This document shows positions 37,647 through 59,276 of a stretch of 64,000 nt of DNA, in pieces (the first letter of the stretch is position 1; each line of letters starts with the position of its first letter). The position numbers were made by a program, and so were the translations under genes. The DNA is from Agrococcus jenensis (GTDB lineage Bacteria > Actinomycetota > Actinomycetes > Actinomycetales > Microbacteriaceae), in assembly GCF_003752465.1 (NCBI RefSeq), contig NZ_RKHJ01000001.1:2790001-2854000 (forward strand), in the 5' to 3' direction. Under the pieces are notes generated by a model, which was not told the DNA's origin, ran no database searches, and saw only the letters and a program-made list of their open reading frames with translations.

Positions 37647-37680
37647 CGGGCTCAATGTAGCCGTCGGGCGCCCACCGCCG

Positions 37681-40600
37681 TCACTGGAGGTCGGTCACGC
37701 GGAACGCGTCGATCGAGAACACGCCGGTCGAGGTCGACGAGCTGGCGCGGTTGGCGTGCACGCCCACCGACCCCTGTGTGTTCGCTCCGGTCGCGTCCGT
37801 CACGCTCACCTGCCAGGCGGCAGGCCGCGGCGTGCCGGCGCGCCAGATGCTCGCGTCGACCGTCGTGCTCGTCGACCCGGTCACCTCCACCTCGAGCGTG
37901 AACCAGTCCCCTGCCGCCCGAGTGATGCCGGGCACCTGGTAGCTGCGCAGCACCGTCGAGCCGTGCTGCACCACCAACCAGACGGTCCCGTTGTCGCGCA
38001 GCCACACCCGCACCCGGTAGTCGCCCGCCGACGTCGACCGCGTGATCACGCCGACGTACGCGGAACCGGTCGCCGGCGCCTGGTCGAGCCGCAGGTCCAT
38101 CGAGACCCGCACATCGCTCAGCGCGAGCGAGCTCAGCCGCAGGTCGCGCGTCGACCCGGCACCGAGGTTCAGCCTGCCGACGCCGCCGGCGACGGACGCG
38201 GGCGTCGCGGTGCCCGTGATCGTCCACGGGCCGCCCACGTCTGACGTGCCCCAACCCGAAGCGACGGTGCGCGAGAAGTCGTCCGACGCGGCGAAGGTCG
38301 CCGCTGCCGGCGCGTCCGGCTGCGTCACCTGGATGACGCGGGTGGTCGTGGCGGTCGCGCCGTCGTCATCGGTCACGGTGAGCGTCACGGTGTAGCTGCC
38401 CGCCGCTCCGTAGCGGTGCGTCGACGTCGCACCCGAGGTGCTCGCCGTCCCGTCGCCCCAGTTCCAGCTCCACGACACGATGCTGCCGTCCGGATCCGAC
38501 GAGCCCGACCCGTTCACCGCCGCATCCAGATCGTCGATCGTGGCGGTGAACGATGCCGTCGGGGCGACGTTCGGAGCCTCGACGGTCGCGTTCCGCGTGG
38601 CGGTGCTGCTCAGCCCGCGGCCGTCCGTGACGGTCAGGACGACCGGGTAGGTACCTGCCCGCCCGTAGACATGGGTCGGCGAGACGCCGGTGCCCGTCGT
38701 GCCGTCACCGAACTGCCACGCGTAGGAGGCGATCGTCGAGCCGGACGCGGCGGTCGATCCCGACGCGTCGAAGCTCGCGGTGAGCGCGCTCGTCGTGGAC
38801 TCGAACGCGGCCGTCGGCGCCTGCTGCCCGGAGCCGACCGCGTAGTGCGTCGAGACCTGGCCGCTCGAGAGCGCCGATCCGTAGACCGCGACCTCGTCGA
38901 TCGCGCCGCGCAAGTACATGGACGACGGCGCACTGGGCCACGAGCTCAGGTTGTCGCCGCCGATCCTCCAGTAGCCGCTGTACGTCTGCGCGGTCGTGAC
39001 CATGAGCTGGGCGACTTGCACGCCGTCGACGTAGAGCGTCATGCCGTCGGCGCCCTGCGTCGCCACCACGTGGTGCCAGCGACCGTCGTTGTACGCGGCC
39101 GGGGACGAGATCGTGCGGATCACACCGCCCGGGCGCACGCCGAAGGTGAGCCTGCCGTCGTTCCGCATGTAGATGTGACGGTCGTAGCTGGTCGACGAGC
39201 CGGTCTGCCAGCTGCCGAGGCCGATGAGCTTGCCGCCCTGGGTGGTCGTGGTGTTGAACCACAGCTCGGTCGAGAACGCGCTCGGTGCCCTGCCGATCAC
39301 GTTGGACGACACGCGGCCGTTCGTCGTGCCGTCGAAGCTCGACGCCGACTCACCGGTGACGCCCGCGACCGCGCCCGGCGAGATGGTGGTCGCGCCGCTG
39401 CCGAACAGCGGTGTCGTGGATTCGCCCCAGTCCGTCCGGGAGGAGCCCAGCGGGTAGTAGAGGAAGGCACCGTCATCGAGCACGGCGTTGGCGTAGGCCG
39501 ACGTCTGACCGCTCGCGACGGTCACCGTGACCGCCGGGCTCGTCACGGCGTTGCCGTTCCGGTCGACCGCTCGCACCGTATAGGTATGGCTGGTGCCCGG
39601 CGTGAGGCCGGTGTCGGTGAAGGTCACCTGCGGCTGCGACCACCAGCTCGACGGCACGACGCGCGACTGCAGCACGCCGGCGGCGCCGGCCCGTCTGAGC
39701 TCGTAGGTGAGGTCGCGGTCGTCGCGGTCCCAGTTGCCGCGGATCGAGATGCGGGCGCGCCCCGCGACGACGGACGTGGCCGTGGGGGCTCCCCAGGTCG
39801 CGCTGGCGATGCGCGGGCCCTGCTTCGGCCCGTTCGGCGGTGTGGTCGAGAAGCGCACGAGCCCCTCGTAGCGGAGGTTGTTCACGCTGGTGAACTCGCC
39901 GCCGACGGAGAGGTACTGGCCGTTGCCCGTCATCGACAGCCCGGCCTGGTTGAGGCCGGAGGTCCGGCCGATGGTGAAGTCCGGGTACCAGGCGAAGGGC
40001 GCAGGGGCGGGGGTGCCGCTCCAGTTCTTGTATCCGCCGGACGGCGTGCGGGTGAGCGTGCCCTGCGCGGACGCGGTGAAGGCCTCGACGTACCGGTAGG
40101 TGCGCGGGTTCAGCTCGGGGGCGAGGCCGGCGGTGTCACACGCGTGGGTGTGGCTCGTCGCGTAGACCGTCTCACCCGTCGAGAAGACGCCGTAGTGATC
40201 GCCGTGGCAGTCGGCCACCCAGCGGATGGCGCCGGTGCCCGCCTCTGCCGCGAACACGCCCTCGAGGTTGCCCACGGTGGAGTTCGACGTCACCCAGCCG
40301 GTGCCGTACACGCCCGAACCATCGGTGGAGAGCGCGAAGATCCCGGCCTTGCCGGCGTAGTCGCCCTCGGACCAGCCGTTGATGACGGTCTTCGACGCCG
40401 CCCACGCTGCGTCCAGGGCGCCGGTCACCGGGTCGAGGGGGGCGAGGCCGCGCTGGACGACGCCGTTCGTGCGGTAGAAGCGGCCCCCGACGATCACGTG
40501 GGAGCCACCCGGGTCGATGACGAGTGCGTCCCCCTGCAGGTCGATCGTCGGCGCCCACGAGCGCAGGGCAGCGTTCGCAGTGGCGAACGCAGCGAGGTTC

Positions 40601-41205
40601 TGCCGCGCGACCCCGTTCGCCTGCGTGAAGCGTCCTGTGACGTAGACCGTCTCGCCCGTCGCCGCGATGCCGAACACACCGGCGCCGCCGATCGAGGCGT
40701 TGAAGCCGGGCAGCAGCGCACCGGTCGTCGGGTTGAGCACGGCGAAGTTGCGTCGCGTCTCGCCGTTGACCGACGTGAACGACCCGCCGATGTAGAGGCG
40801 CGTGCCGTCAGGAGAGGCTGCCACGGCGCGGATGGGACCGTTGACCTGCGGGGCGAACGACAGCAGGTTCCCGGTGCGGATGTCGTAGGCGAGGATGTTG
40901 CTGCGCGGCGTCAGGCTCGTGCCCGGTGCCGCCAGCGGCGCGCGCGCGTTCGCGAAGCCGCCGCCCGCATAGACGGTGGTGCCGATCACCGTCTGCGCCC
41001 AGACGTAGCCGTTGTCGATCTGCACCGTGGGCAGCGGGTCCGCGGTGACGACCGAGCTGGTGCGCTGCTGCAGCGTGACCGGACCTGTCCCCGCGGCGTT
41101 GGCGACGGTCAGGCCGGAGGTCAGCATCGCGCCGGTCGCGACGGTGGCGAGCGCTGCGAGCAGCACGGCGCGCAGGGGGCGGCGAGAGCGCATGGCGGTG
41201 TCCAT
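37681..41205 (-). CDS. Secreted multidomain surface protein, array paralogue 1 (propeller-FN3-LamG-PKD-PKD)
   Basis: 1174 residues. Signal peptide at about residues 1-38 (hydrophobic core after RRPLRAV, cleavage after VANAA). Residues 45-455 are a repetitive beta-propeller-like part (SPDGTRLYIGGSFTSVNG units); two cysteines (333, 356) in CHGDHYGVFSTGETVYATSH and the following HACDT could pair. Then FN3-like 464-564, LamG/concanavalin-like 570-792 (GRWHHVVATQG), PKD 797-877 (YAWQFGDGTT), PKD 880-962 (WSWNWGDGTA) and a terminal beta domain 972-1174. There is no LPXTG signal or C-terminal helix. Such architecture suggests glycan binding or a matrix role; this is inference. ATG 41205 lies three bases after a leader ORF stop; an in-frame ATG four codons later is possible. 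Confidence 0.9.
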   Translation of the reverse strand: MDTAMRSRRPLRAVLLAALATVATGAMLTSGLTVANAAGTGPVTLQQRTSSVVTADPLPTVQIDNGYVWAQTVIGTTVYAGGGFANARAPLAAPGTSLTPRSNILAYDIRTGNLLSFAPQVNGPIRAVAASPDGTRLYIGGSFTSVNGETRRNFAVLNPTTGALLPGFNASIGGAGVFGIAATGETVYVTGRFTQANGVARQNLAAFATANAALRSWAPTIDLQGDALVIDPGGSHVIVGGRFYRTNGVVQRGLAPLDPVTGALDAAWAASKTVINGWSEGDYAGKAGIFALSTDGSGVYGTGWVTSNSTVGNLEGVFAAEAGTGAIRWVADCHGDHYGVFSTGETVYATSHTHACDTAGLAPELNPRTYRYVEAFTASAQGTLTRTPSGGYKNWSGTPAPAPFAWYPDFTIGRTSGLNQAGLSMTGNGQYLSVGGEFTSVNNLRYEGLVRFSTTPPNGPKQGPRIASATWGAPTATSVVAGRARISIRGNWDRDDRDLTYELRRAGAAGVLQSRVVPSSWWSQPQVTFTDTGLTPGTSHTYTVRAVDRNGNAVTSPAVTVTVASGQTSAYANAVLDDGAFLYYPLGSSRTDWGESTTPLFGSGATTISPGAVAGVTGESASSFDGTTNGRVSSNVIGRAPSAFSTELWFNTTTTQGGKLIGLGSWQTGSSTSYDRHIYMRNDGRLTFGVRPGGVIRTISSPAAYNDGRWHHVVATQGADGMTLYVDGVQVAQLMVTTAQTYSGYWRIGGDNLSSWPSAPSSMYLRGAIDEVAVYGSALSSGQVSTHYAVGSGQQAPTAAFESTTSALTASFDASGSTAASGSTIASYAWQFGDGTTGTGVSPTHVYGRAGTYPVVLTVTDGRGLSSTATRNATVEAPNVAPTASFTATIDDLDAAVNGSGSSDPDGSIVSWSWNWGDGTASTSGATSTHRYGAAGSYTVTLTVTDDDGATATTTRVIQVTQPDAPAAATFAASDDFSRTVASGWGTSDVGGPWTITGTATPASVAGGVGRLNLGAGSTRDLRLSSLALSDVRVSMDLRLDQAPATGSAYVGVITRSTSAGDYRVRVWLRDNGTVWLVVQHGSTVLRSYQVPGITRAAGDWFTLEVEVTGSTSTTVDASIWRAGTPRPAAWQVSVTDATGANTQGSVGVHANRASSSTSTGVFSIDAFRVTDLQ

Positions 41206-41208
41206 CTG

Positions 41209-41337
41209 TCAGCGGGTGCTTCCCGCGAGGACCGCGAACGGCTCCCCCGCGGCGTCGTTGGCGGCGATCCGATCCGCGAAGACGAGAGCCACTGCCGTCG
41301 AGCGTCCTGCTCGACGGATCCGGGGTCGTGCGTTCAC
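41209..41337 (-). pseudogene. Leader ORF, internally deleted lipoprotein remnant (unit 1)
   Basis: An open frame of 42 codons from GTG 41337 to TGA 41209, ending 3 bp before the array gene start (TGACAGATG). Its end (NDAAGEPFAVLAGSTR) matches the end of the lipoprotein at 52.8 kb (NYAAGEPLAVFTGRAP). Its first part (RIRRAGRSTAVAL) matches that protein's N-terminus. The ~190 codons between are missing. It could be a decayed copy or a kept upstream ORF for translational coupling. Confidence 0.55.
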
Positions 41338-41395
41338 AGCTCTCTCCAGACGTCCGTTGCCGGCGGCCGACGATGACGCTCGCCGGCGACCCGGC

Positions 41396-41491
41396 GCGGC
41401 ATGGATGCCGCCTTGCATCGAGCGTATGGATAACAGTGTTCGAGAAACGACCGCTCGCGCCAATCATCAGCGGAACCCGCGCCGGGCTTGA
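41396..41491 (-). promoter_or_regulatory. Conserved promoter/leader module of array unit 1
   Basis: Reading toward the gene: a conserved 31-bp block (41461-41491 on the plus strand, CAATCATCAGCGGAACC...), the operator-like core GGATAACAGTGTTCGAGAAAC (41428-41448; shown by halves AAC-AGT-GTT), a TACGCT box (candidate -10, on the minus strand), then a 7-bp-stem hairpin GCGGCAT-CC-ATGCCGC (41396-41411). The same order recurs in units 2, 3 and 4. Confidence 0.6.
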
Positions 41492-41549
41492 TCTTCCTGA
41501 GCCGTTCGCGAGGCGGCGTCGACACCGCGCCCGCCGGGCGGAGCACCGC

Positions 41550-41586
41550 GACGGCCCCGCCCTCGCATCGCGCGAGCGGGGCCGTC
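41550..41586 (-). terminator. Terminator-like hairpin downstream of array paralogue 2
   Basis: GACGGCCCCGC (41550-41560) pairs with GCGGGGCCGTC (41576-41586), with inner CTCG/CGAG pairs. It lies 52 bp beyond the paralogue 2 stop on the minus strand and separates it from the unit 1 promoter. There is no T-tract, as is common in high-GC actinobacteria. Confidence 0.75.
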
Positions 41587-41637
41587 ACGAAGGACTCGCC
41601 GGTCAGGCTCCCTCGAGCCGCCCGGCGCTCGCCTCCG

Positions 41638-44600
41638 TCATCCGAGGTTCGTCACCCGGAATGCGTCGATCGAGAACACGCCGGTCGAGGTCGACGTGCT
41701 GCTGCGGTTCGCGTGCACGCCGACCGACCCCTGCGGGTTCGATCCGGTCGCGTCGGTGACGCTCACCTGCCAGGCCGCGGGCCGCGGCGTGCCGGTGCGC
41801 CAGATGCTGGCCGCGACGGTCGTGCTCGTCGAGCCGGTCACCTCCACCTCGAGCGTGAACCAGTCCCCGGCCGCACGTGTCAGACCCGGCACCTGGTAGC
41901 TGCGCAGCACCGTCGAGCCGTGCTGCACCACGAGCCAGACGGTCCCGTTGTCGCGCAGCCAGACCCGCACCCGGTAGTCGCCGGCCGACGTCGACCGCGT
42001 GATCACGCCGAGGTAGGCAGAACCGGTCGCGGGCGCCTGGTCGAGCCTCAGGTCCATCGAGACCCGCACATCGCTCAGGGATACGCCGTTCAGCCGCAGG
42101 TCCCGCGTCGACCCGGCCCCCAGCGCGAGCGTGCCGACGCCGTTGCCCACCGACGCGGGCGTCGCGGTGCCCGTGACGGTCCACGGACCGCCGACCTCCG
42201 ACGTGCCCCAGCCCGGGGCCACCGTGCGAGAGAAGTCATCCGAGGCCGCGAAGGTGGCCGGCGGCACGACCGGCTCGGTCGCTTCGACGACACCGGTCGT
42301 CGTCGCCGTCGCACCGTCGTCATCGGTCACCGTGAGCGTCACCGTGTAGCTCCCGGCCGCCCCGTAGCGGTGCGTCGAGGTCGCACCCGAGGTGCTCGCG
42401 GTGCCATCGCCCCAGTTCCAGCTCCACGACACGACGCCGCCATCCGGGTCCGAGGAGCCCGAGCCGTTCACCGCCGCATCGAGGTCGTCGATCGTGCTGG
42501 TGAACGACGCCGTCGGACCGACGTTGGCGGCCTCGACCGTGACGTCCTGCGTGATCGCTTCGCTCAGGCCGCGATCGTCGGTGACGGTCAGGGTGACCGC
42601 GTAGGTGCCGGGCTGGCCGTAGAGGTGTGTCGGCGTGATGCCGGTCCCGGTCGCGCCGTCACCGAACTGCCACCCGTAGGAGGTGATCGTCGAGCCGCTC
42701 GCAGCTGCCGAGTCGGACGCGTCGAAGCTCGCGGTGAGCGCACTCGTCGTGGCCGCGAAGGCGGCCGTCGGCGCCTGGAGACCGGATCCGACCGCGTAGT
42801 GCGTCGAGACCTGGCTGCTCGAGAGCGCCGTGCTGTAGACGGCGACCTCGTCGATCGCGCCCCGGAACGAGGCCGACGACGGCTGCGCCGGCCACCCGTT
42901 CAGGTTGTCGCCGCCGATCCTCCAGTAGCCGGCGTAGTTCTGCGCCGTGGTGACGGTCGCGTCCTGCGCGACTCGTGCTCCGTCGACGTAGAGCGCGATG
43001 CCCTCAGCTCCTTGCGTCGCCACGACGTGGTGCCAGCGGCCGTCGTTGTACGAGGCGGTCGACGAGACCGTCCGCACCTGCCCCGGGTAGACGCCGAAGG
43101 TCAGTCGTCCGTCGTTGTGCATGTAGATGTGGCGGTCGTAGCTGCCCGACCAGTCGGTCTGCGAGCTGCCGAAGCCCATCAGCTTGCCGCCCTGCGTGGT
43201 CGTGGTGTTGAACCACAGCTCGGTCGAGAACGTGCTGGGCACGGTGGCGCTCGAGGCGGACGACACACGGCCGTTCGCCGTGCCATCGAAGCCCGACGCC
43301 GACTCGCCCGTCACACCCGCGACCGCGCCCGGCGACACATCCGTCGCGCCGGGGCCGAACAGCGGGGTGCTGGAACCGCCCCAGTCGGATCGGTTCGTGC
43401 CGAGCGGGTAGTAGAGCGTGGCTGCGTCATCGAGCACGGCGTTGGCGTAGGCGGACGAGTCCCCGTCCGCGATCGTCACGGTCGAGGCCTGGCTCGTCAC
43501 GGCGTTGCCGTTGCCGTCGACCACCCGCACCGTGTAGGTGTGGCTCGCCCCCGGCGTCAGACCCGTGTCGTTGAAGGTGATCTGCGGCTGCGACCACCAG
43601 CTCGACGGGACGACCTGCGACTGGACGACGCCTGCTGTGCCGGCCCGTCGCAGCTCGTACGTGAGGTCGCGGTCGTCGCGGTCCCAGTTGCCGCGGATCG
43701 TGATCCGCGCCCGGCCGGCGACCACGGAGGTCGCGGAGGGCGCGCCCCAGGTCGCGCTCGCGATGCGCGGGCCCTGCTTCGGCCCATTCGGCGGCGCCAC
43801 CGCGAAGCGCACGAGGCCCTCGTAGCGCAGGTTGTTGACGCTCCCGAACTCGCCCGCGACCGACAGGAACTGGTCGTTGCCGGTCATCGAGAGCCCTGCC
43901 TGGTTGAGGCCGGAGGTGCGTCCCACGGTGAAGTCGGGGTACCACGCGTACGGCGCGGGCGCCGGCGTGCCGCTCCAGTCCTTGTAGATGCTGCTCACCG
44001 AGGGGCTGCGGGTCAGCGTGCCCTCGGCGGTGGCGCTGAAGGCCCCGACGTAGCGGTACGTGCGCGGGTTGAGCTCGGGCGCGAGGCCCGCGCTGTCGCA
44101 CTCGTGCGTGTGGCTCGTGGCGTAGACCGTCTCGCCGGTCGAGAAGACGCCGTAGTGGTCGCCGTGGCAGTCTGCCACCCAGCGGATCGCACCCGTGCCC
44201 GCCTCAGCCGCGAACACTCCCTCGAGGTTGCCCGCGTTCACGTCGGCGTACACCCAGCCCGTGCCGTACACGCCCGAGTCGTCGGTGGAGAGCGCGAAGA
44301 TGCCCGCCTTGCCGGCGGTCGCGCCAGAGGACCATCCGTTGACGACGGTCTTCGACGCGGCCCACGCGGTGTCGATGGCGCCGGTCACCGGGTCGAGCGG
44401 GGCCAGACCCCGCTGGACCACGCCGTTCGTGAGGTAGAAGCGGCCACCCACGATCACGTGCGATCCGTCGGGGTCGATGACCATCGCGTCGCCCTGGCGG
44501 TCGAGCGTCGGTGCCCACGACCGGAGCGCGCCGTTGGCAGTCGCGAAGGCGGCGAGGTTCTGCCGGGCGACGCCGTTGGCCTGCGTGAAGAGGCCCGTCG

Positions 44601-45165
44601 CGTACACGGTGTCGCCGGTCGTCGCGATGCCGTAGACGCCGGTGCCGCCGATCGACGCGTTGAACCCCGGCAGCAGCGCGCCGGTGGTCGGGTTGAGCGC
44701 CGCGAAGTTGTAGCGGGTCTGGCCGTTGACCGAGCTGAAGGAGCCGCCGATGTAGAGGCGCGTGCCGTCCGCGGATGCCGCGACCGCGCGGATCGGGCCG
44801 TTCACCTGCGGCGCGAACGACAGCAGGTTTCCGGTCCGGATGTCGTAGGACAGGATGTTGCTCCGCGGCGTCAGGCTCGTCCCGGGTGCCGCGAGCGGCG
44901 CGCGCGCGTTGGCGAAGCCGCCGCCGGCGAACACGGTGCTGCCGATCATGGTCTGCGCCCAGACGTAGCCGTTGTCGATCTGCACCGTGGGCAGCGGGTC
45001 CGCGGTGACCATCGAGCCGGTGCGCTGCTGCAGGGTGACCGGACCGGTCCCGGCAGCGGTCGCGACGGTCAGGCCCGAGGTCACCAAGGCGCCGGTGGCG
45101 ACGGCAGCGAGGGCGGTGAGCAGGACGGCGCGCAGAGGGCGGCGAAGGCGCATGGTGATGTCCAT
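41638..45165 (-). CDS. Secreted multidomain surface protein, array paralogue 2
   Basis: 1175 residues, collinear with paralogue 1 throughout: signal peptide, propeller-like region, FN3, LamG, two PKD units and the terminal beta domain. Differences: the signal is MDITMRLRRPLRAVLL; the loop before YKDWSGTPAP is TRSPSVSSI; and the LamG segment reads GQVRTVSSTASYNDGRW. The paired cysteines are kept (VADCHGDHYGVF; THECDSAG). Its C-terminal domain has LSVNG-to-LNGVSLSDVRVSM changes relative to paralogues 1 and 3. ATG 45165 follows TGACAG as in unit 1. It is bounded by terminator hairpins on both sides, so it is probably its own transcript. Confidence 0.9.
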   Translation of the reverse strand: MDITMRLRRPLRAVLLTALAAVATGALVTSGLTVATAAGTGPVTLQQRTGSMVTADPLPTVQIDNGYVWAQTMIGSTVFAGGGFANARAPLAAPGTSLTPRSNILSYDIRTGNLLSFAPQVNGPIRAVAASADGTRLYIGGSFSSVNGQTRYNFAALNPTTGALLPGFNASIGGTGVYGIATTGDTVYATGLFTQANGVARQNLAAFATANGALRSWAPTLDRQGDAMVIDPDGSHVIVGGRFYLTNGVVQRGLAPLDPVTGAIDTAWAASKTVVNGWSSGATAGKAGIFALSTDDSGVYGTGWVYADVNAGNLEGVFAAEAGTGAIRWVADCHGDHYGVFSTGETVYATSHTHECDSAGLAPELNPRTYRYVGAFSATAEGTLTRSPSVSSIYKDWSGTPAPAPYAWYPDFTVGRTSGLNQAGLSMTGNDQFLSVAGEFGSVNNLRYEGLVRFAVAPPNGPKQGPRIASATWGAPSATSVVAGRARITIRGNWDRDDRDLTYELRRAGTAGVVQSQVVPSSWWSQPQITFNDTGLTPGASHTYTVRVVDGNGNAVTSQASTVTIADGDSSAYANAVLDDAATLYYPLGTNRSDWGGSSTPLFGPGATDVSPGAVAGVTGESASGFDGTANGRVSSASSATVPSTFSTELWFNTTTTQGGKLMGFGSSQTDWSGSYDRHIYMHNDGRLTFGVYPGQVRTVSSTASYNDGRWHHVVATQGAEGIALYVDGARVAQDATVTTAQNYAGYWRIGGDNLNGWPAQPSSASFRGAIDEVAVYSTALSSSQVSTHYAVGSGLQAPTAAFAATTSALTASFDASDSAAASGSTITSYGWQFGDGATGTGITPTHLYGQPGTYAVTLTVTDDRGLSEAITQDVTVEAANVGPTASFTSTIDDLDAAVNGSGSSDPDGGVVSWSWNWGDGTASTSGATSTHRYGAAGSYTVTLTVTDDDGATATTTGVVEATEPVVPPATFAASDDFSRTVAPGWGTSEVGGPWTVTGTATPASVGNGVGTLALGAGSTRDLRLNGVSLSDVRVSMDLRLDQAPATGSAYLGVITRSTSAGDYRVRVWLRDNGTVWLVVQHGSTVLRSYQVPGLTRAAGDWFTLEVEVTGSTSTTVAASIWRTGTPRPAAWQVSVTDATGSNPQGSVGVHANRSSTSTSTGVFSIDAFRVTNLG

Positions 45166-45221
45166 CTGTCAGAGGTTGTGCACGTGAGGCCGCGAGGACG
45201 CTGCTCACCGGCGAACCGGAA

Positions 45222-45317
45222 GCGGCGTCATCGCCGCCTGAGAGCGAGCGTATGGATAACGTCGTTCCGAAACGACCGGCGCGCCGCAATCATCAGCGGA
45301 ACCCGCGTCGGGCCTGA
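45222..45317 (-). promoter_or_regulatory. Conserved promoter/leader module of array unit 2
   Basis: Block 45287-45317, operator-like core ATAACGTCGTTCCGAAAC (45256-45273), TACGCT box, hairpin GCGGCG-ATGA-CGCCGC (45222-45237, minus sense). Here the leader between hairpin and ATG is only about 55 bases. It lacks the lipoprotein N-terminal sequence seen in units 1 and 3; only the tail GTCCTCGCGG...CTGACAG remains. Confidence 0.6.
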
Positions 45318-45339
45318 GGATCGCGATCGGCACGAACAG

Positions 45340-45376
45340 GACGACCCCGCCCGCGCAGCGCGCGGGCGGGGTCGTC
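45340..45376 (-). terminator. Terminator-like hairpin downstream of array paralogue 3
   Basis: A perfect 17-bp GC-rich stem with a 3-base loop: GACGACCCCGCCCGCGC (45340-45356), AGC, and its complement to 45376. It is 18 bp past the stop of paralogue 3 on the minus strand. This is the strongest hairpin in the window after the kgd one; no T-tract. Confidence 0.82.
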
Positions 45377-45394
45377 ATCGGCCGAGGGTCTCCG

Positions 45395-48300
45395 TCACCC
45401 GAGGTTCGTCACCCGGAATGCGTCGATCGAGAACAGGCCGGTCGAGGTCGCCGTGCTGCTCCGGTTGGCGTGCACGCCGACCGAGCCCTGCGGGTTCGAT
45501 CCGGTCGCGTCCGTCACGCTCACCTGCCAGGCGGCAGGCCGCGGCGTGCCGGCGCGCCAGATGCTCGCGTCGACCGTCGTGCTCGTCGACCCGGTCACCT
45601 CCACCTCGAGCGTGAACCAGTCCCCTGCCGCGCGAGCGATGCCAGGCACCTGGTAGCTGCGCAGCACCGTCGAGCCGTGCTGCACCACCAACCAGACGGT
45701 CCCGTTGTCGCGCAGCCACACCCGCACCCGGTAGTCGCCCGCCGACGTCGACCGCGTGATCACGCCGACGTACGCGGAACCGGTCGCCGGCGCCTGGTCG
45801 AGCCGCAGGTCCATCGAGACCCGCACGTCGCTCAGCGCGAGCGAGCTCAGCCGCAGATCTCGGGTCGAGCCCGCTCCGAGGGAGAGCGTGCCCAGTCCGC
45901 TGCCGACGGACGCGGGCGTCGCAGTCCCGGTGATCGTCCAGGGACCGCCGACATCCGATGTGCCCCAGCCAGAAGCGACCGTGCGCGAGAAGTCGTCGCG
46001 GGCGGCGAACGTCGCCGGCGGCGGGACGTCCGGCTCCGTCGCCTGGACGACCCGTGTCGTCGTGGCAGTCGCGCCGTCGTCGTCGGTCACGGTGAGCGTC
46101 ACGGTGTAGCTGCCCGCCGCGCCGTAGCGGTGCGTCGACGTCGCACCCGAGGTGCTCGCCGTCCCGTCGCCCCAGTTCCAGCTCCAGGCGACGACGCTGC
46201 CGTCCGGATCCGACGAGCCCGAGCCGTTCACCGCGGCGTCGAGATCGCTGACCGTGCTGGTGAAGGATGCCGTGGGACCGACGTTCGCGGCCTGGACCGT
46301 GACGTTCTGCGTGATGGCATCGCTCAGCCCGCGGCTGTCGGTGACCGTGAGCGTGACGCCGTAGGTGCCGGACTGGCTGTAGGCGTGGCTCGGGGAGACG
46401 CCGGTGCCGGTCGCGCCGTCACCGAACTGCCACGCGTACGAGGCGATGGTCGAGCCGGACGCGGCGGTCGAGCCGGAGGCATCGAAGCTCGCGGTGAGCG
46501 CGCTGGTCGTGGACTGGAACGCGGCCGTCGGCGCCTGCTGCCCGGATCCGACCGCGTAGTGCGTCGAGACCTGGCTGCTCGAGAGCGCCGCGCTGTAGAC
46601 GGCGACCTCGTCGATCGCGCCGCGGAAGTAGCTCGACGACGGTGCGCTGGGCCACGAGCCGAGGTTGTCGCCGCCGATCCGCCAGAAGCCGGTGTAGCCC
46701 TGCGCCGTGGTCACGGTCGTGTCCTGCGCCACGCGCGTGCCGTCGACGTAGAGCGCGATGCCGCCCGCCCCCTGCGTCGCCACCACGTGGTGCCAGCGGC
46801 CGTCGTTGTACGACGCGGTGGACGAGATGGTGCGCACCTGCCCCGGGTAGACACCGAAGGTCAGCCGACCGCTGTTCTGCATGTAGACGTGGCGGTCGTA
46901 GCTGCTCGACGAGCCGGTCTGCGCGCTGCCGAAGCCCATGAGCTTGCCGCCCTGCGTGGTCGTGGTGTTGAACCACAGCTCGGTCGAGAACGCGCCAGGC
47001 ACGGTCGAGCTGGAGCCCGACGACACGCGGCCGCTCGTCGTGCCGTTGAAGCTCGACGCGGACTCGCCGGTCACGCCTGCCACCGCGCCGGGTGACACAT
47101 CCGTCGCGCCCGAGCCGAACAGCGGCGTGCTCGTGCCACCCCAGTCGGAGCGGTTCGAGCCCAGCGGGTAGTAGAGCGTGGCCCCGTCGTCGAGCACAGC
47201 GTTGGCGTAGGCCGACGTCTGCCCGCTCGCGACGGTCACCGTCGCGGCCTGGCTCGTCACGGCGTTGCCGTTCCCGTCGACCACGCGCACCGTGTAGCTC
47301 TGCGTCGTCCCCGGTGTCAGCCCTGTGTCGTTGAACGTGACCTGCGGCTGCGACCACCAGCCCGAGGGCACGACCTGCGACCGGATCACGCCGGCGGTGC
47401 CCGCGCGGCGCAGCTCGTAGGTGAGGTCGCGGTCGTCGCGGTCCCAGTTGCCGCGGATCGAGATGCGGGCGCGGCCGGCGACGACCGACGTCACGGTCGG
47501 CGCGCCCCAGGTCGCGCTGGCGATGCGCGGGCCCTGCTTCGGCCCGTTCGGCGGGGTGGTCGAGAAGCGCACGAGCCCCTCGTAGCGGAGGTTGTTCACG
47601 CTGGTGAACTCGCCGCCGATGGAGAGGTACTGGCCGTTGCCCGTCATCGACAGCCCGGCCTGGTTGAGACCCGACGTGCGACCGATGGTGAAGTCGGGGT
47701 ACCACGCATACGGCGCGGGGGCGGGCGTGCCGCTCCAGTCCTTGTAGATGCTGCCGGTCGTCGGGCTGCGGGTCAGCGTGCCCTCCGCGGTGGCGGTGAA
47801 CGCCTCGACGTAGCGGTAGGTGCGAGGGTTCAGCTCCGGCGCGAGGCCCGCGGTGTCGCAGGCGTGCGTGTGGCTCGTCGTGTAGACGACGTCGCCGGTG
47901 GAGTAGACGCCGTAGTGGTCGCCGTGGCAGTCGGCGACCCATCGGATCGCACCGGTCCCCGCTTCTGCGGCGAACGTGCCCTCGAGGTTGCCGATCGACG
48001 TGTTCGCGTACACCCAACCGGTGCCGTACACGCCCGAATCGTCGACGTTGAGCGAGAAGATGCCGGCCTTGCCGGCGAAGTCGCCCTCGGACCAGCCGTT
48101 GATGACGGTCTTGGACGCAGCCCAGGCCGTGTCGAGGGCGCCGGTGACCGGGTCGAGCGGGGCGAGACCGCGCTGCACCACGCCGTTCGTGCGATAGAAG
48201 CGGCCGCCTGCGATCACGTGCGAGCCACCCGGGTCGATCACGAGCGCGTCGCCCTGGAGGTCGATCGTGGGAGCCCACGAACGAAGGGCGCCGTTGGCCG

Positions 48301-48913
48301 TCGCGAAGGCGGCGAGGTTCTGCCGTGCCACCCCGTTGGCCTGCGTGAACCGTCCGGTCACGTACACGGTGTCGTTCATGGTCGCGATGCCGAAGACCCC
48401 CGCGCCACCGATCGAGGCGTTGAACCCGGGCAGCAGCGCTCCGGTGGTCGGGTTGAGCGCGGCGAAGTTGAAGCGCGTCTGGCCGTTGACGGAGGTGAAG
48501 GACCCGCCGATGTACAGGCGGGTGCCGTCAGGAGAGGCCGCCACCGCGCGGATGGGGCCGTTCACCTGCGGTGCGAACGACAGCAGGTTCCCAGTGCGGA
48601 TGTCGTAGGCGAGGATGTTGCTGCGCGGTGTCAGGCTCGTGCCTGGCGAGGCGAGCGGCGCGCGCGCGTTGGCGAAGCCGCCGCCGGCGTAGACCGTGTT
48701 GCCGATCATGGCCTGTGCCCACACGTAGCCGTTGTCGATCTGGACGGTGGCGAGCGGATCAGCGGTGACGACCGAGCTGGTGCGCTGCTGCAGCGTCACC
48801 GGGCCGGTGCCCGCGGCGTTCGCGACCGTCAGTCCGGAGGCGAGCATCGCACCGGTCGCGACGGTGGCGAGCGCGGCGAGCAGCACGGCGCGCAGCGGTT
48901 GGCGAGAGCGCAT
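45395..48913 (-). CDS. Secreted multidomain surface protein, array paralogue 3
   Basis: 1172 residues with the same architecture as paralogue 1. The first ATG of units 1 and 2 (ATGGAC) has become GGGACT here, so translation must begin at the second Met (MRSRQPLRAVLL), preceded by GAGAGGGA at suitable spacing. The signal peptide is complete. It keeps both cysteines (VADCHGDHYGVY; THACDTAG), with the variant segment STGDVVYTTSH. Its C-terminal domain is almost identical to that of paralogue 1 over 342 bp (45515-45856 versus 37801-38142), while flanking parts differ more, suggesting gene conversion. It is isolated by hairpins at 45340 and 49233. Confidence 0.9.
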   Translation of the reverse strand: MRSRQPLRAVLLAALATVATGAMLASGLTVANAAGTGPVTLQQRTSSVVTADPLATVQIDNGYVWAQAMIGNTVYAGGGFANARAPLASPGTSLTPRSNILAYDIRTGNLLSFAPQVNGPIRAVAASPDGTRLYIGGSFTSVNGQTRFNFAALNPTTGALLPGFNASIGGAGVFGIATMNDTVYVTGRFTQANGVARQNLAAFATANGALRSWAPTIDLQGDALVIDPGGSHVIAGGRFYRTNGVVQRGLAPLDPVTGALDTAWAASKTVINGWSEGDFAGKAGIFSLNVDDSGVYGTGWVYANTSIGNLEGTFAAEAGTGAIRWVADCHGDHYGVYSTGDVVYTTSHTHACDTAGLAPELNPRTYRYVEAFTATAEGTLTRSPTTGSIYKDWSGTPAPAPYAWYPDFTIGRTSGLNQAGLSMTGNGQYLSIGGEFTSVNNLRYEGLVRFSTTPPNGPKQGPRIASATWGAPTVTSVVAGRARISIRGNWDRDDRDLTYELRRAGTAGVIRSQVVPSGWWSQPQVTFNDTGLTPGTTQSYTVRVVDGNGNAVTSQAATVTVASGQTSAYANAVLDDGATLYYPLGSNRSDWGGTSTPLFGSGATDVSPGAVAGVTGESASSFNGTTSGRVSSGSSSTVPGAFSTELWFNTTTTQGGKLMGFGSAQTGSSSSYDRHVYMQNSGRLTFGVYPGQVRTISSTASYNDGRWHHVVATQGAGGIALYVDGTRVAQDTTVTTAQGYTGFWRIGGDNLGSWPSAPSSSYFRGAIDEVAVYSAALSSSQVSTHYAVGSGQQAPTAAFQSTTSALTASFDASGSTAASGSTIASYAWQFGDGATGTGVSPSHAYSQSGTYGVTLTVTDSRGLSDAITQNVTVQAANVGPTASFTSTVSDLDAAVNGSGSSDPDGSVVAWSWNWGDGTASTSGATSTHRYGAAGSYTVTLTVTDDDGATATTTRVVQATEPDVPPPATFAARDDFSRTVASGWGTSDVGGPWTITGTATPASVGSGLGTLSLGAGSTRDLRLSSLALSDVRVSMDLRLDQAPATGSAYVGVITRSTSAGDYRVRVWLRDNGTVWLVVQHGSTVLRSYQVPGIARAAGDWFTLEVEVTGSTSTTVDASIWRAGTPRPAAWQVSVTDATGSNPQGSVGVHANRSSTATSTGLFSIDAFRVTNLG

Positions 48914-48926
48914 GGCAGAGTCCCTC

Positions 48927-49025
48927 TCAGGCGGTTGTTCCGTTGAAGGCCGCGAGCGGCTCGCCCGCGGCGAGAGCCGCTGCCGTCGAGCGTCGCGCTG
49001 GACGGCTTCGGCGTGGTGCGATCAC
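48927..49025 (-). pseudogene. Leader ORF, internally deleted lipoprotein remnant (unit 3)
   Basis: 32 codons from GTG 49025 to TGA 48927. The frame reads MIAPRRSRPARRSTAAA and then AAGEPLAAFNGTTA. The first part matches the lipoprotein N-terminus (VIAPRRTRRARGATAVAVA) and the second matches its C-terminus (AAGEPLAVFTGRAP). Roughly 200 codons between, including the lipobox, are missing in frame. The upstream ATG of the lipoprotein is ATC here. It ends 13 bp before the array ATG. Confidence 0.6.
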
Positions 49026-49080
49026 GGCTCTCCAGATGGGTCGGTAGCGGCCGATGACGCTGCTCGCCGGCGGACCGGGA

Positions 49081-49175
49081 GCGGCGACGATGCCGCCTTG
49101 CAGCGAGCGTAGGCATAACACCGTTCGGAAACGCCCGATGGCGGCAATCAACAGGGAAATCCGCGCCGGGCTTGA
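49081..49175 (-). promoter_or_regulatory. Conserved promoter/leader module of array unit 3
   Basis: Block 49145-49175 (CAATCAACAGGGAAATCC...), operator-like core CATAACACCGTTCGGAAAC (49114-49132), TACGCT box, then hairpin GCGGC-ATCGTC-GCCGC (49081-49096, minus sense). This fills most of the 363-bp gap upstream of paralogue 3, together with the leader ORF and the next terminator. Confidence 0.6.
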
Positions 49176-49232
49176 GTCTCCTGACCCTGTGCTCGTGGCG
49201 GCGGAGCCCGCCTCCCGCTGAGGACCGAGAGG

Positions 49233-49267
49233 GCTGCCCCGCGCACGCACCGCCCGCGCGGGGCCAG
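49233..49267 (-). terminator. Terminator-like hairpin downstream of array paralogue 4
   Basis: GCTGCCCCGCGC and GCGCGGGGCCAGC pair with one bulged base around a loop of about 10 bases (49233-49267). It lies 9 bp after the stop of paralogue 4 on the minus strand. Confidence 0.65.
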
Positions 49268-49276
49268 CGCCCTCCG

Positions 49277-52200
49277 TCACCCGAGGTTCGTCACCCGGAA
49301 CGCATCGATCGAGAAGAGCCCGGCGGCGGTCGCCGCGCTGCTGCGGTTGGCGTGCACGCCGACCGAGCCGCTCAGGTTCGATCCGGTCGCATCCGTCACG
49401 CTGACCTGCCACGCCGCGGGCTGCTGCGTGCCGGCGCGCCAGATGCTCGCGTCGACGGTGGTGCTGGTCGTGCCCGTCACCTGCACCTCGAGCGTGAACC
49501 AGTCACCGGCCGCTCGGGTGATGCCCGGCACCTGATAGGTGCGCAGCACCGTCGACCCGTGCTGCACGACGAGCGATACCGTCCCGTTGTCGCGCAGCCA
49601 GACCCGCACGCGGTAGTCGCCCGCCGACGTCGACCGGGTGATGACGCCCAGGTACGCGGAGCCCGTAGCCGGCGCCTGGTCCAGCCGCAGGTCCATCGAC
49701 ACCCGCACGTCGCTGAGCGAGAGGCCGCTGAGCCGGAGGTCGCGCGTCGACCCGGCGCCCAGGCTCAGGGTGCCGACGCCGTCGGCGACCGCAGCCGGCG
49801 CCGCCGTGCCGGTGATCGTCCACGGCCCGCCGACGTCAGCGCTCCCCCAGCCCGGCGAGACCGTGCGCGAGAAGTCGTCCGACGCCGCGAAGGTCGCGGG
49901 GGGCGGCAGGTCCGGCTCGGTTGCTTCGATGACACCCGTCGCCGAGCTCGTGGCGCCGTCATCATCGGTCACGGTGAGCGTCACGGTGTAGCTGCCCGCC
50001 GACCCGTACCGGTGCGTCGACGTCGCGCCGGAGGTGGTCGCCGAGCCGTCGCCCCAGCTCCAGCTCCAGGCGACGACGCTGCCGTCGGGATCCGTCGAGG
50101 CTGCGCCGTCCACAGCGGCGTCGAGGTCGTCGACCGTGCTGGTGAACGAGGCGTTCGGTCCGACGTTCGGGGCCTCGACGGTGATCTCCTGCGTGATGGC
50201 ATCGCTGAGCCCGCGGCCGTCGGTCACCGTCAGCGTGACCGCGTAGGTGCCGGCCTCGCCGTAGGTGTGCGTCGGGGCGACTCCGGTGCCGCTCGCACCA
50301 TCACCGAACTGCCAGTCGTACGAGGTGATCGTCGACCCGCCCGCAGCCGAGGAGCCCGCAGCGTCGAAGCTCGCGGCCAGCAGGTCCGCCGTGGCCTGGA
50401 AGGTCGCGGTCGGCGCCTGGAATCCCGAGCCGACGGCGTAGTGCGTCGAGACCTGGGCGCTCGTGAGCGCCGAGCCGTAGACGGCGACCTCGTCGATCGT
50501 GCCGCGGAAGTAGCTCGACGACGGGGCGCCCGGCCACGAGCCCAGGGCGTCGCCGCCGATCCTCCAGAAGCCGTTGTACGCCTGGGCAGTCGTGACCGTC
50601 GTGTCCTGCGCCACGCGGTTCCCGTCGACGAAGAGCGCGATGCCGTCCGCCCCCTGCGTCGCCACCACGTGGTGCCAGCGCCCGTCGTTGTACGACGCGG
50701 TCGACGAGATCGTCCGCACCTGCCCCGGGTAGACGCCGAACGTCAGCCGCCCGCTGTTCTGCATGTAGACGTGGCGGTCGTAGCTGCCCGACGAGCCGGT
50801 CTGCGCGCTGCCGAAGCCCATGAGCTTGCCGCCCTGCGTGGTCGTGGTGTTGAACCACAGCTCGGTCGAGAAGGTGCCGGGCGCCGTCGAGCTGGAGCCC
50901 GAGGACACGCGCGCGTTCGTCGTGCCGTTGAAGCTCGACGCTGACTCGCCCGTCACGCCCGCCACCGCTCCGGGCGACACGTCGGTCACGCGGTTGCCGA
51001 ACAGCGGCGTGCTCGATCCGCCCCAGTCGGAGCGGTTCGTCCCGAGCGGGTAGTAGAGCGTCGCACCGTCATCGAGCACCGCGTTCACGTACTCGGACGT
51101 CTTCCCGCTCGCGACCGTCACGGTCGCAGCCTGGCTCGTCACGGCGTTGCCGTTGCCGTCGACGACCCGCACCGTGTACGTGTGGCTCGCTCCCGGGGTC
51201 AGCCCGGTGTCGGTGAAGGCGACCTGCGGCTGCGCCCACCAGCTCGACGGGACGACGCGCGACTGGATGACGCTGGCCGTTCCCGCCCGTCGCAGCTCGT
51301 ACGTGAGGTCGCGGTCGTCGCGGTCCCAGTTGCCGCGGATGGAGATCCGTGCTCGCCCGGCGACGACCGACGTGACGGTGGGCGCGCCCCAGGTCGCGCT
51401 CGCGACGCGGGGGCCCTGCTTCGGGCCGTTCGGTGGCGCGACTCCGAAGCGGACGAGGCCCTCGTAGCGCTGGTTGTTGACGCTCCCGAACTCGCCGCCG
51501 ACCGAGACGTACTGATCGTTGCCCGTCATCGACAGGCCTGCCTGGTTCAGCCCGGACGTGCGGCCGACCGTGAAGTCCGGGTACCACGCATAGGGGGCAG
51601 GGGCGGGCGTGCCGCTCCAGTCCTTGTAGATGCTGCTCACCGAGGGGCTGCGCGTGAGCGTGCCCTCTGCGGTCGCGCTGAACGCCTCCACGTACCGGTA
51701 GCTGCGGGGGTTGAGCTCCGGGGCGAGGCCTGCGGTGTCGCACTCGTGCGTGTGGCTCGTCGCGTAGACGGTCTCCCCGGTGGAGAAGACGCCGTAGTGG
51801 TCGCCGTGGCAGTCGGCGACCCAGCGGATGGCGCCGGTGCCGGCGTCGGCGGCGAAGACGCCCTCGAGGTTGCCGATCGAGGTGTTCGCATAGACCCAGC
51901 CGGTGCCGTAGACGCCGGAGTCGTCGACCGCGAGCGCGAAGATGCCCGCCTTGCCGGCGTAGGTGCCCTCCGACCAGCCGTTGATGACGGTCTTCGACGC
52001 GGCCCAGGCGGTGTCGAGGGCGCCGCTCACGGGGTCGAGCGGGGCGAGGCCGCGCTGGACCACCCCGTTGGTGAGGTAGAAGCGGCCGCCCACGATGACG
52101 TGCGACCCGCCTGGATCGATCACCAGGGCGTCGCCCTGCAGGTCGACCGTGGGCGCCCACGACCGGAGCGCGCCGTCGGCCATCGCGAAGGCGGCGAGGT

Positions 52201-52807
52201 TCTGCCGCGCGACGCCGTTCGCCTGCGTGAAGAGGCCGGTGACGTAGACGGTGTCGCTCGTGGTCGCGATGCCGTAGACGCCGCTGCCGCCGATCGAGGC
52301 GTTGAAGTCGGGCAGCAGCGCTCCGGTGGTCGGGTTGAGGGCCGCGATGTTGAAGCGGGTCTGGCCGTTCACCGAGGTGAACGATCCGCCGATGTAGAGG
52401 CGCGTGCCGTCGGGCGAGGCGGCGACGGCGCGGATGGGGCCGTTGACCTGCGGGGCGAACGACAGCAGGTTCCCGGTCCGGATGTCGTAGGAGAGGATGT
52501 TGCTCCGCGGCGTCAGGCTCGTGCCCGGTGCCGCCAGCGGCGCGCGCGCGTTCGCGAAGCCGCCGCCCGCATAGACGGTGGTGCCGATCATCGTCTGCGC
52601 CCACACGTAGCCGTTGTCGATCTGCACCGTGGGCAGCGGGTCCGCGGTCACGACCGAGCTGGTGCGCTGCTGCAGCGTGACCGGGCCGGTCCCCGCGGCG
52701 TTGGCGACGGTCAGGCCGGAGGTCAGCAGCGCGCCGGTCGCGACGGTGGCGAGCGCTGCGAGCAGCACGGAGCGCAGCGGTTGGCGGGGGCGCGTGGTGA
52801 TGTCCAT
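49277..52807 (-). CDS. Secreted multidomain surface protein, array paralogue 4
   Basis: 1176 residues, same domain order. It starts at ATG 52807 (MDITTRPRQPLRSVLL). The second Met used by paralogue 3 is a Thr codon here, so this copy must use the first. The start is one base after the stop of the lipoprotein (TGAGATG), giving translational coupling. Its signal and propeller N-terminus (52507-52769) is nearly identical to paralogue 1 (40905-41167), while the PKD region diverges more (TATFQATADLLAASFDAAG). Paired cysteines are kept (VADCHGDHYGVF; THECDTAG). The C-terminal domain carries changes such as TVSLVVQHG and GTQQPAAW. Confidence 0.9.
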   Translation of the reverse strand: MDITTRPRQPLRSVLLAALATVATGALLTSGLTVANAAGTGPVTLQQRTSSVVTADPLPTVQIDNGYVWAQTMIGTTVYAGGGFANARAPLAAPGTSLTPRSNILSYDIRTGNLLSFAPQVNGPIRAVAASPDGTRLYIGGSFTSVNGQTRFNIAALNPTTGALLPDFNASIGGSGVYGIATTSDTVYVTGLFTQANGVARQNLAAFAMADGALRSWAPTVDLQGDALVIDPGGSHVIVGGRFYLTNGVVQRGLAPLDPVSGALDTAWAASKTVINGWSEGTYAGKAGIFALAVDDSGVYGTGWVYANTSIGNLEGVFAADAGTGAIRWVADCHGDHYGVFSTGETVYATSHTHECDTAGLAPELNPRSYRYVEAFSATAEGTLTRSPSVSSIYKDWSGTPAPAPYAWYPDFTVGRTSGLNQAGLSMTGNDQYVSVGGEFGSVNNQRYEGLVRFGVAPPNGPKQGPRVASATWGAPTVTSVVAGRARISIRGNWDRDDRDLTYELRRAGTASVIQSRVVPSSWWAQPQVAFTDTGLTPGASHTYTVRVVDGNGNAVTSQAATVTVASGKTSEYVNAVLDDGATLYYPLGTNRSDWGGSSTPLFGNRVTDVSPGAVAGVTGESASSFNGTTNARVSSGSSSTAPGTFSTELWFNTTTTQGGKLMGFGSAQTGSSGSYDRHVYMQNSGRLTFGVYPGQVRTISSTASYNDGRWHHVVATQGADGIALFVDGNRVAQDTTVTTAQAYNGFWRIGGDALGSWPGAPSSSYFRGTIDEVAVYGSALTSAQVSTHYAVGSGFQAPTATFQATADLLAASFDAAGSSAAGGSTITSYDWQFGDGASGTGVAPTHTYGEAGTYAVTLTVTDGRGLSDAITQEITVEAPNVGPNASFTSTVDDLDAAVDGAASTDPDGSVVAWSWSWGDGSATTSGATSTHRYGSAGSYTVTLTVTDDDGATSSATGVIEATEPDLPPPATFAASDDFSRTVSPGWGSADVGGPWTITGTAAPAAVADGVGTLSLGAGSTRDLRLSGLSLSDVRVSMDLRLDQAPATGSAYLGVITRSTSAGDYRVRVWLRDNGTVSLVVQHGSTVLRTYQVPGITRAAGDWFTLEVQVTGTTSTTVDASIWRAGTQQPAAWQVSVTDATGSNLSGSVGVHANRSSAATAAGLFSIDAFRVTNLG

Positions 52808-52808
52808 C

Positions 52809-53519
52809 TCAGGGGGCTCTTCCGGTGAAGACCGCGAGCGGTTCGCCTGCGGCGTAGTTGACCGTGACTGTGACGTTCCGGCCCGAGGCCGGGTCGAGCA
52901 TGAAGACGTAGGTGCCGGAGACGGTGGCGCCAGGCTCGATCATCCCGGAGAGCGGTGACGGCGAACCCGCCGTCGTGCCGACGCCGACCTCTCCGTCATC
53001 CGTGATGAGGGTGACGACGGCGGAGTCGACCTCCTGCGGCTCACCCGACTGGTTGCGGGCGGCGACGCTGACGCGCAGCGCGGGACCGTCCATCTCTCCG
53101 GGCGTCTCGGCGGTGACGGTGATCGCGTCGACGGCGACGATCTCGACCACGACGCCCGTGTCGAACGTGATGGCCTCGTCGAGCGCCGCCGTCGTCGTGG
53201 GCAGCGCCGCTGCCTCAGTGGGGCCGTCAGGGCCGGGCGTCGCGCCAGCTCCCGGCGCGGGCACGGCGGTGGCGCCGGGCGGGATGGTGGGCCCGGTGGC
53301 GGGCGGATCGCTCGCGTCCGGCGCAGTGCTCGGAGCAGCCGTCTGGCTCGCGTCCGGCGTCTCACTGGCGACCGCGGTCGCGGCCGGGTCAGCGGAGGTC
53401 GGTCCGCACCCCGTCACTCCCAGCACGACGAGCGCTGCGGCCCCCATGGCGACGGCCACCGCCGTCGCGCCTCGTGCTCGACGGGTCCGGCGTGGTGCGA
53501 TCACAGCTCTCCAAGACAT
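52809..53519 (-). CDS. Putative secreted lipoprotein heading array unit 4
   Basis: 236 residues. A basic N-terminus (RRTRRARG) and hydrophobic core lead to a lipobox, LGVTGC, near residue 37. Then comes a long Thr/Pro/Ala/Ser linker and a C-terminal beta domain of about 110 residues, with RVSVAARNQSGEPQEVDSA and GTYVFMLDPASGRNVTVTV. This is the pattern of the DUF4352-like extracellular domain (change-of-environment beta sandwich), though I cannot confirm that family. The stop is one base before paralogue 4. ATG 53519 is used; a GTG five codons later (MIAPRRT) is the start shared with the shortened leader ORF of unit 3 and may be the true one. Confidence 0.75.
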   Translation of the reverse strand: MSWRAVIAPRRTRRARGATAVAVAMGAAALVVLGVTGCGPTSADPAATAVASETPDASQTAAPSTAPDASDPPATGPTIPPGATAVPAPGAGATPGPDGPTEAAALPTTTAALDEAITFDTGVVVEIVAVDAITVTAETPGEMDGPALRVSVAARNQSGEPQEVDSAVVTLITDDGEVGVGTTAGSPSPLSGMIEPGATVSGTYVFMLDPASGRNVTVTVNYAAGEPLAVFTGRAP

Positions 53520-53562: not shown

Positions 53563-53657
53563 GCGGCGTCGACGCCGCCTGAGGTGAGCGTATGGACAAC
53601 ACCGTTCGAAAAGCGACCGACGGCGGCAATCATCAGCGGAAGCCGCGCCTGGCTTGA
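53563..53657 (-). promoter_or_regulatory. Conserved promoter/leader module of array unit 4 (lipoprotein operon)
   Basis: Block 53627-53657, operator-like core GACAACACCGTTCGAAAAG (53595-53613), TACGCT box and hairpin GCGGCG-TCGA-CGCCGC (53563-53578, a perfect palindrome). It drives the lipoprotein and, by coupling, paralogue 4. Confidence 0.6.
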
Positions 53658-57131: not shown

Positions 57132-57227
57132 CCGCACCTCGCTCTGCCGCGCGGGCGGCCCGGCGCGATTGGGATGAGTGTAGGTGCTTGCGCGCCATGC
57201 GGCGCAACATGCGCCAGACTGTGCCGC

Positions 57228-59227: not shown

Positions 59228-59276
59228 CGCCTTCTTGGGCTGACCCTGGGGTCCGCCTGCGGCACTGGACGCTACG

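Follow-up and report, generated by a model that had tools for sequence, protein, structure and literature searches.

Four collinear genes for giant proteins lie head to tail on the minus strand of the window, the 64,000-nucleotide stretch covering positions 2790001-2854000 of the one-contig, 2.96-Mb genome of Agrococcus jenensis. In the order D-C-B-A, they occupy positions 49277-52807 (copy D, 1176 aa), 45395-48913 (copy C, 1172 aa), 41638-45165 (copy B, 1175 aa) and 37681-41205 (copy A, 1174 aa), with copy A adjoining a wzy-like gene. The sequence-only reading of this stretch had described four tandem, full-length paralogues of near-constant length, almost without indels, inside an exopolysaccharide (EPS) locus, and this description holds: the four minus-strand open reading frames are 83.1-87.9% identical in pairwise protein comparison and 83.4-86.6% identical as DNA, and they align over 1177 columns with few gaps. 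Its placement of the array end at 53519 does not, since the array proper stops at 52807 and positions 52809-53504 (minus strand) hold a separate lipoprotein gene. Whole-gene dN/dS among the copies is 0.17-0.22 and dS is 0.38-0.47; with silent divergence of that size, the copies are not recent.

The neighbours of the array are those of a polysaccharide locus. An EPS initiating sugar transferase gene (29487-31037, plus strand; Bac_transf, 228.6 bits) is followed by a glycosyltransferase gene (31068-32240, plus), a chain-length or BY-kinase-like gene with Wzz and AAA regions (33182-34609, minus; Wzz 34.5 bits, AAA_31 49.4 bits), a wzx-like flippase gene (34792-36327, plus; Polysacc_synt_3, 223.7 bits) and the wzy-like gene directly behind A (36354-37655, minus). 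Beyond the head of the array lie a glycosyltransferase gene that diverges from it (53745-54941, plus) and a family 2 glycosyltransferase gene (55432-57210, minus). Each of these genes except the wzy-like one matches a Pfam family above its cut-off, including three parts of the Wzx/Wzy type: the initiating transferase, the flippase and the chain-length protein. By its gene content we read this as a Wzx/Wzy-type EPS locus, in which the putative polymerase gene is called wzy-like by position and neighbours, its Wzy_C score (24.9 bits) being below the cut-off of 31.7. The same position is taken by a wzy-like gene in L059, the closest relative whose DNA was compared. Further along the window, the frame at 57868-59283 is probably not a real gene, and 58271-59227 is the likelier one.

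Promoter-like modules occur above chance at the array. They are found on the minus strand at 41420-41470 (before A), 45246-45296 (before B), 49105-49154 (before C) and 53586-53636 (before the lipoprotein gene and D), where the module reads CTGATGATTG ... GTTGTCCATACGCTC. With at most one mismatch, GTTATNCNTACGCTC has four matches in the 2.96-Mb genome, all before array units and one per unit, and its reversed control has 0 matches in the same 2.96 Mb. At the same tolerance, CTGATGATTG matches five times in the window against 0.97 expected, four times before array units and once on the opposite strand at 26092. Compared between units over 117-118 nt, the promoter-like block shows 72-82% identity, whereas 4-fold sites among A-D differ at 31-38%; the block is therefore somewhat better kept than silent sites. 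A comparable block precedes the lipoprotein gene of L059. That every copy has a promoter-like module of its own is borne out for A, B and C, but not for D, whose module precedes the lipoprotein gene because D starts 1 nt past the lipoprotein stop codon.

The strong hairpins proposed behind most copies fare in a similar way. Those behind C (45340-45376, minus strand; a 17-bp perfect stem, MFE -44 for 65 nt, z -4.44) and B (41547-41589, minus; MFE -71.9 for 103 nt, z -3.42) are clear against shuffles, but the one behind D (49230-49270, minus; MFE -39.6 kcal/mol for 62 nt, z -1.71) is weak, with 8 of 200 shuffles as good, and behind A none stands out from shuffles (z -0.27). Therefore A and the wzy-like gene may be transcribed together.

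Origin of the array and its head lipoprotein

The lipoprotein gene encodes 231 aa from a GTG start, with a lipobox (VTGC) and a DUF4352-like domain; the lipobox and ribosome-binding site were read by eye, and the DUF4352 (PF11611) scores of 18.3 bits at full length and 20.1 bits for the C-terminal part lie below the cut-off of 25.9. Its stop codon sits 1 nt before the ATG of D. The gene is whole before D only and nearly gone before B. Before C (48927-49025, minus strand) and before A (41209-41337, minus), in-frame remnants of 32 and 42 codons, respectively, retain its start and stop. In L059, where the order is lipoprotein, giant gene and wzy with a single giant copy, both junctions match the ends of the array: D retains the 5' lipoprotein side and A retains the 3' wzy junction. 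From the module in each unit, the lipoprotein remnants and these L059-like ends, it follows that the duplicated unit was promoter, lipoprotein gene and giant gene. After duplication, promoter and giant gene were kept in every unit and the lipoprotein gene was lost from the inner ones.

Related arrays show a similar arrangement. Among 78 related loci, taken from the best 80 of 167 matches and so leaning to close kin, 14 carry two or three copies in tandem in the stretches examined. A lipoprotein match is present in nine of these 14, in eight of the nine before the first copy only, and in L038 before the first two of three copies; it is absent from the other five. Of four further arrays, three have a lipoprotein match, each before the first copy. 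Remnants of lipoprotein-upstream sequence lie before an inner copy in L038 and L039, and L039 also holds remnants of the 3' part of the lipoprotein gene; the same test on L085 found none.

Domains and predicted folds

All four proteins begin with a signal-peptide-like region (read by eye) that contains RRPLR in A and B and RQPLR in C and D. The sequence check found no C-terminal LPXTG in any of the four and no hydrophobic tail, and LPXTG is likewise absent from the last 80 residues of all 91 closed open reading frames of relatives. The copies thus look secreted without an LPXTG motif or a membrane anchor, as first proposed. A cytoplasmic function for A-D is unlikely, given the signal-peptide-like start and two conserved cysteines.

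In all four copies, Pfam identifies Laminin_G_3 (PF13385; 77.6-84.1 bits, cut-off 27.6) and two stretches of PKD_4 (PF18911; 111-126.9 bits, cut-off 27). DUF5122 (PF17164; cut-off 27 bits) is reached by A (29.5), C (32.2) and D (31.5), with B below it (21.5), and Rax2 (PF12768) is below its cut-off in the two copies that match. No Pfam FN3 model reached E 0.001 in A-D, and the terminal domain has no Pfam family above cut-off, its best match being DUF7617 at E 0.6. A structure model of D residues 36-572 (pLDDT 94.9, pTM 0.93) shows a 7-bladed propeller and then an Ig-like beta domain at the place assigned to FN3. For residues 566-1176 the model has a pLDDT of 91.1 but a pTM of 0.54, and therefore the individual C-terminal domains can be trusted and their mutual arrangement cannot. 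The predicted order is a 7-bladed propeller, an Ig-like domain, a LamG jelly roll, two PKD spacers and a terminal CBM66-like jelly roll. Propeller, LamG part, two PKD domains and a terminal beta domain had all been named from the sequence; what had been called FN3 is a beta domain in the model that has no FN3 match in Pfam.

In fold searches, the propeller matches WD40/G-beta-type proteins over the whole domain (Foldseek). The LamG jelly roll is closest to domain 4 of the arabinanase AbnA (PDB 5hon/5hp6; 16% identity), although by Pfam the array proteins have no GH43 domain. The terminal jelly roll matches a mycobacteriophage central fibre and, at 13% identity, the fold of Bacillus subtilis CBM66 (PDB 4azz). 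The jelly rolls may bind sugar, although a resemblance of fold is no proof of function. Searched against solved sequences, the family profile gave 39 rows at E <= 0.01, mostly PKD and LamG relatives. The few rows in other parts were weak and included a sybody, which aligns with the propeller, as well as an F5/8 type C protein and bacillolysin, which align towards the terminal domain. A viral library gave LamG-type phage proteins and also some minor tail proteins. The LamG jelly roll further resembles, at 11-17% identity, clostridial neurotoxin binding domains and their partners; this likeness is one of fold only, and we rejected the lead.

Relatives and age of the set

Agrococcus sp. UYP33 has at least four family proteins, each listed on a contig of 2,086,794 bases; four is a minimum, since the proteins had been clustered at 90%. 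In the tree, D pairs with UYP33 P0003 (support 100/99), B with P0007 (100/99) and C with P0012 (94/98), whereas A groups weakly with P0010 and P0015 (83/87) and is 85.1% identical to P0003 versus 84.4% to P0010. The copies of neither strain form a group of their own (4 changes each). With four copies in UYP33, and with B, C and D paired one to one at support of at least 94/98, we reject an assembly error as the source of the array, and the refuting case named earlier, such an error with one copy or none in close strains, does not hold; the set predates the split of the two strains. L059 has one copy in the stretch examined, which comes from a 65%-complete metagenome assembly (G019).

The gene is matched in 12 of 24 Agrococcus genomes. 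Counted by the N-terminal part, copy number is four in the window genome, two in G023 and one in each of the ten remaining genomes, with some of these assemblies incomplete. Eleven of the 12 have the gene within 10 kb of an EPS initiating sugar transferase gene; in the remaining one, G020, the two are on separate contigs. Ten of the 12 genomes without a match carry Bac_transf, and EPS synthesis therefore seems not to need the giant gene.

In the family scan, 1973 proteins reached E <= 0.001 among 7995 candidates scored (120 of them listed). Beyond the genus, tandem arrangements are seen again in Microbacterium, Cellulomonas, Nocardioides and elsewhere, usually headed by a single lipoprotein. 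In two genomes, G265 and G295, one contig holds four consecutive copies, and further copies are present; these counts come from 14 genomes picked mostly for hints of tandem copies, and the family scan scored at most two candidates per genome. One alignment (A5) holds 20 of 50 homologues after a length filter. A quick tree without bootstrap, which excludes the fourth G265 copy (three of four rows kept), matches of 330 residues or fewer and loci L016-L036, places the window set, L118, L065 and L060 each on one side of a starred branch, and several tandem sets are therefore separate in origin. For L038/L039, L106/L115/L117 and L111/L119, the copies of one species pair with those of another in unchanged order, so those other sets are not one group each. 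Taken together, all 19 sets need 24 changes on this tree, against a minimum of 18.

An EPS gene match is absent from 26 of the 78 related loci in the stretches examined, at least nine of which are cut by a contig end near the gene. In a Microbacterium branch with full flanks, the giant gene has non-EPS neighbours, and the neighbours of some EPS-less loci with full flanks form what we take to be a MoxR/DUF58 operon. The family is therefore not tied to EPS alone. Family members are also present in four EPS-gene loci of Clavibacter (L078, L080, L083 and L093).

A candidate set of matrix lectins

The reading that we prefer, with a probability of roughly one half, is that A-D are a set of predicted secreted matrix lectins that bind and cross-link the EPS made at this locus, with one head lipoprotein likely serving all four. 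Two jelly rolls of sugar-binding type, held apart by the PKD spacers, would grip the polysaccharide produced by the surrounding wzx/wzy-type genes, and an anchorless giant would stay in the matrix through binding its own polymer. CBM66 binds levan. The lipoprotein could dock or mature the giants at the membrane; present mostly once per set, it would be a docking or assembly part that needs no match in number with them. That four diverged copies share one kind of promoter points to a set. The glycan-binding role first suggested for these proteins gains indirectly from the resemblance of both jelly rolls to carbohydrate-binding domains and from the proximity to an EPS transferase in Agrococcus, but the loci without an EPS gene match speak against an exclusive EPS role.

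The main rival to this reading is an EPS-modifying enzyme, in which the polymer would be trimmed or modified at a catalytic or metal site of the propeller while the LamG and terminal domains would only hold the substrate. The propeller contains the motif D-C-H-G-D-x-Y ... Y-x-x-x-H-x-H-x-C, in which D332, C333, G335, Y338, Y348, H352, H354 and C356 are invariant across all 50 aligned rows (A-D included), D336 is kept in 49 and H334 in 43; C333 and C356 are the sole cysteines of each copy. Such near-invariance of Cys, His, Asp and Tyr residues would suit an active site, as would the likeness of the LamG part to an arabinanase domain. The Cys/His cluster may, however, be a mere disulfide and metal staple, and the propeller matches general WD40/G-beta folds, with no enzyme prominent among the matches listed and GH74 as one of 50 (Foldseek). 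We regard an enzyme as rather doubtful.

The next two rivals concern the reason for four copies, and the exchange of sequence between the copies bears on both. The longest run of shared polymorphism joins A and C over codons 1036-1091 (P 0.0005), and A and D share a run at codons 75-98 (P 0.001); runs are weaker for BD (P 0.0165), AB (P 0.038) and CD (P 0.0595), and BC has none (P 0.53). At silent sites only, the A/C (P 0.0005) and A/D (P 0.001) runs remain and the other four pairs fail 0.05. Between A and C, dS is 0.088 in the last 147 codons versus 0.482 in the propeller, which makes conversion the simpler reading in the terminal part. The clustered tracts fit gene conversion, to which differences in rate along the gene could add.

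Under a plain dosage account, the four copies would be equivalent and would increase the output of a single matrix protein. Their common architecture and nearly equal length, the private promoter-like motif shared by all units and the conversion tracts would all be expected. Against this, B, C and D keep their identity across two strains, other sets show same-order orthologues across species, LamG and PKD1 diverge faster than other parts among A-D, and some copies in other genomes differ strongly in length. Plain dosage is unlikely in our view.

A variation system, which would generate new surface variants or phases by recombining the copies, is improbable. In its favour are mosaic structure along the gene, with 99 adjacent compatible informative sites versus 71.2 +- 6.6 in shuffles, and the UYP33 copies b and c, which are 99.3% alike over their terminal 147 residues versus 89.4% over residues 1-460. 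The clearest tracts homogenise parts instead of diversifying them, however, and three copies remain individually recognisable in both strains. Nor do the genes resemble a silent-cassette system of one expressed copy and partial silent ones: all four are full-length with their own starts, and each unit has a promoter-like motif. A protein search found no partial copy elsewhere in the genome, where one other gene matches in the terminal domain and PKD parts only. Of the dosage, variant or recombination function argued for earlier, the recombination between copies and their retention at full length have support, and plain dosage and variation are kept as rivals. The earlier reading did not bring out the lipoprotein gene, its remnants, the UYP33 copies or the existence of similar sets in other genomes.

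Least probable is that the neighbouring Wzy-family protein ligates glycan onto the giants as Ser/Thr-rich acceptors to give a protein-polysaccharide conjugate: Wzy_C-type proteins include ligases, Ser and Thr make up 22.0-23.5% of A-D and wzy lies directly behind the giant gene in 26 of 64 loci, but in many loci a wzz-like match lies a few kb from the wzy-like match, as for a polymerase.

For a set of matrix lectins, the pattern of divergence can be given a meaning. Purifying selection and gene conversion would hold the propeller and terminal domain alike, and the faster-changing LamG and PKD1 could suit each copy to its own ligand or its own site within the matrix. All dN/dS values lie far below 1, and relaxed constraint rather than tuning may account for the higher ones. 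More tentatively, Actinobacteria might assemble whole repertoires of lectins for their EPS. Such tandem sets would have arisen independently many times, would keep the identity of their copies across species, share a private promoter, combine gene conversion with diverging LamG/PKD heads and have one lipoprotein that loads the whole set; choice among the copies would then make the matrix layered or graded.

Matrix proteins that are secreted and encoded alongside EPS genes are known from Vibrio cholerae (RbmA/Bap1) and Pseudomonas (CdrA/Psl). The array resembles them in that an extracellular protein of several domains is presumed to act on a single exopolysaccharide; unlike those proteins, the members of the array are actinobacterial, have another domain order and are lipoprotein-headed, tandem and preceded by a private promoter-like motif. 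Propeller repeats are shared with the DUF5122/Rax2 propellers, from which the array differs in its D-C-H-G-D-x-Y ... H-x-H-x-C motif and its bacterial EPS context. To our knowledge, little is known of the EPS matrix proteins of Actinobacteria. The recurrent lipoprotein and propeller-lectin module beside wzy is a concrete candidate for the means by which such cells retain their slime, and the tandem sets are a natural experiment in which promoter and giant gene were retained and the partner gene was lost from inner units. Among the literature matches listed, no paper deals with this gene set, and the main text of PMC13390465 contains none of the terms PKD, LamG and propeller. Proteins of the same family, named by domain only, stand in the databases as 'PKD domain-containing protein' in Agrococcus, Microbacterium, Brachybacterium and others.

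Promoter-like modules and possible leader frames of the array

Because the core motif of the promoter-like modules preceding the four tandem giant genes A–D (minus strand; 41420–41470 before A, 45246–45296 before B, 49105–49154 before C and 53586–53636 before the lipoprotein gene and D) has no match elsewhere in the genome at ≤1 mismatch in a whole-genome motif search, the regulator of these modules may be dedicated to the array. The lipoprotein remnants before C (48927–49025) and A (41209–41337) both retain the lipoprotein GTG start and reading frame, as well as a stop codon located just 5′ of the giant's start. The remnants could serve as short leader frames translationally coupled to the giants.

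An invariant Cys/His motif

Each giant contains only two cysteines, and both lie within an invariant D-C-H-G-D-x-Y ... H-x-H-x-C motif (residues 332–356 in A, B and D; 328–352 in C). It is possible that this motif constitutes a disulfide-stapled metal or active site.

Related genes outside the array

Besides A–D, a fifth gene of the window genome (G000) carries the terminal domain of the giants. It encodes a metallophosphoesterase and lies ~23 kb past the window (L035:4687–7848 = G000:C1:2876687–2879848); the domain is matched twice, flanking two PKD domains. A second terminal-domain gene is located ~30–35 kb from the EPS-locus gene in Agrococcus genomes G000, G002, G006, G012, G016, G018 and G023.

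No EPS gene match is present in the DNA retrieved around the Microbacterium family members at loci L041, L043, L061–L064, L066, L068, L072, L074, L076 and L084. The L043 and L066 genes adjoin genes that resemble a MoxR/DUF58 operon. Some members of the family are short or have an apparent ricin-type domain at the end, and in several of these the tandem arrangement recurs.
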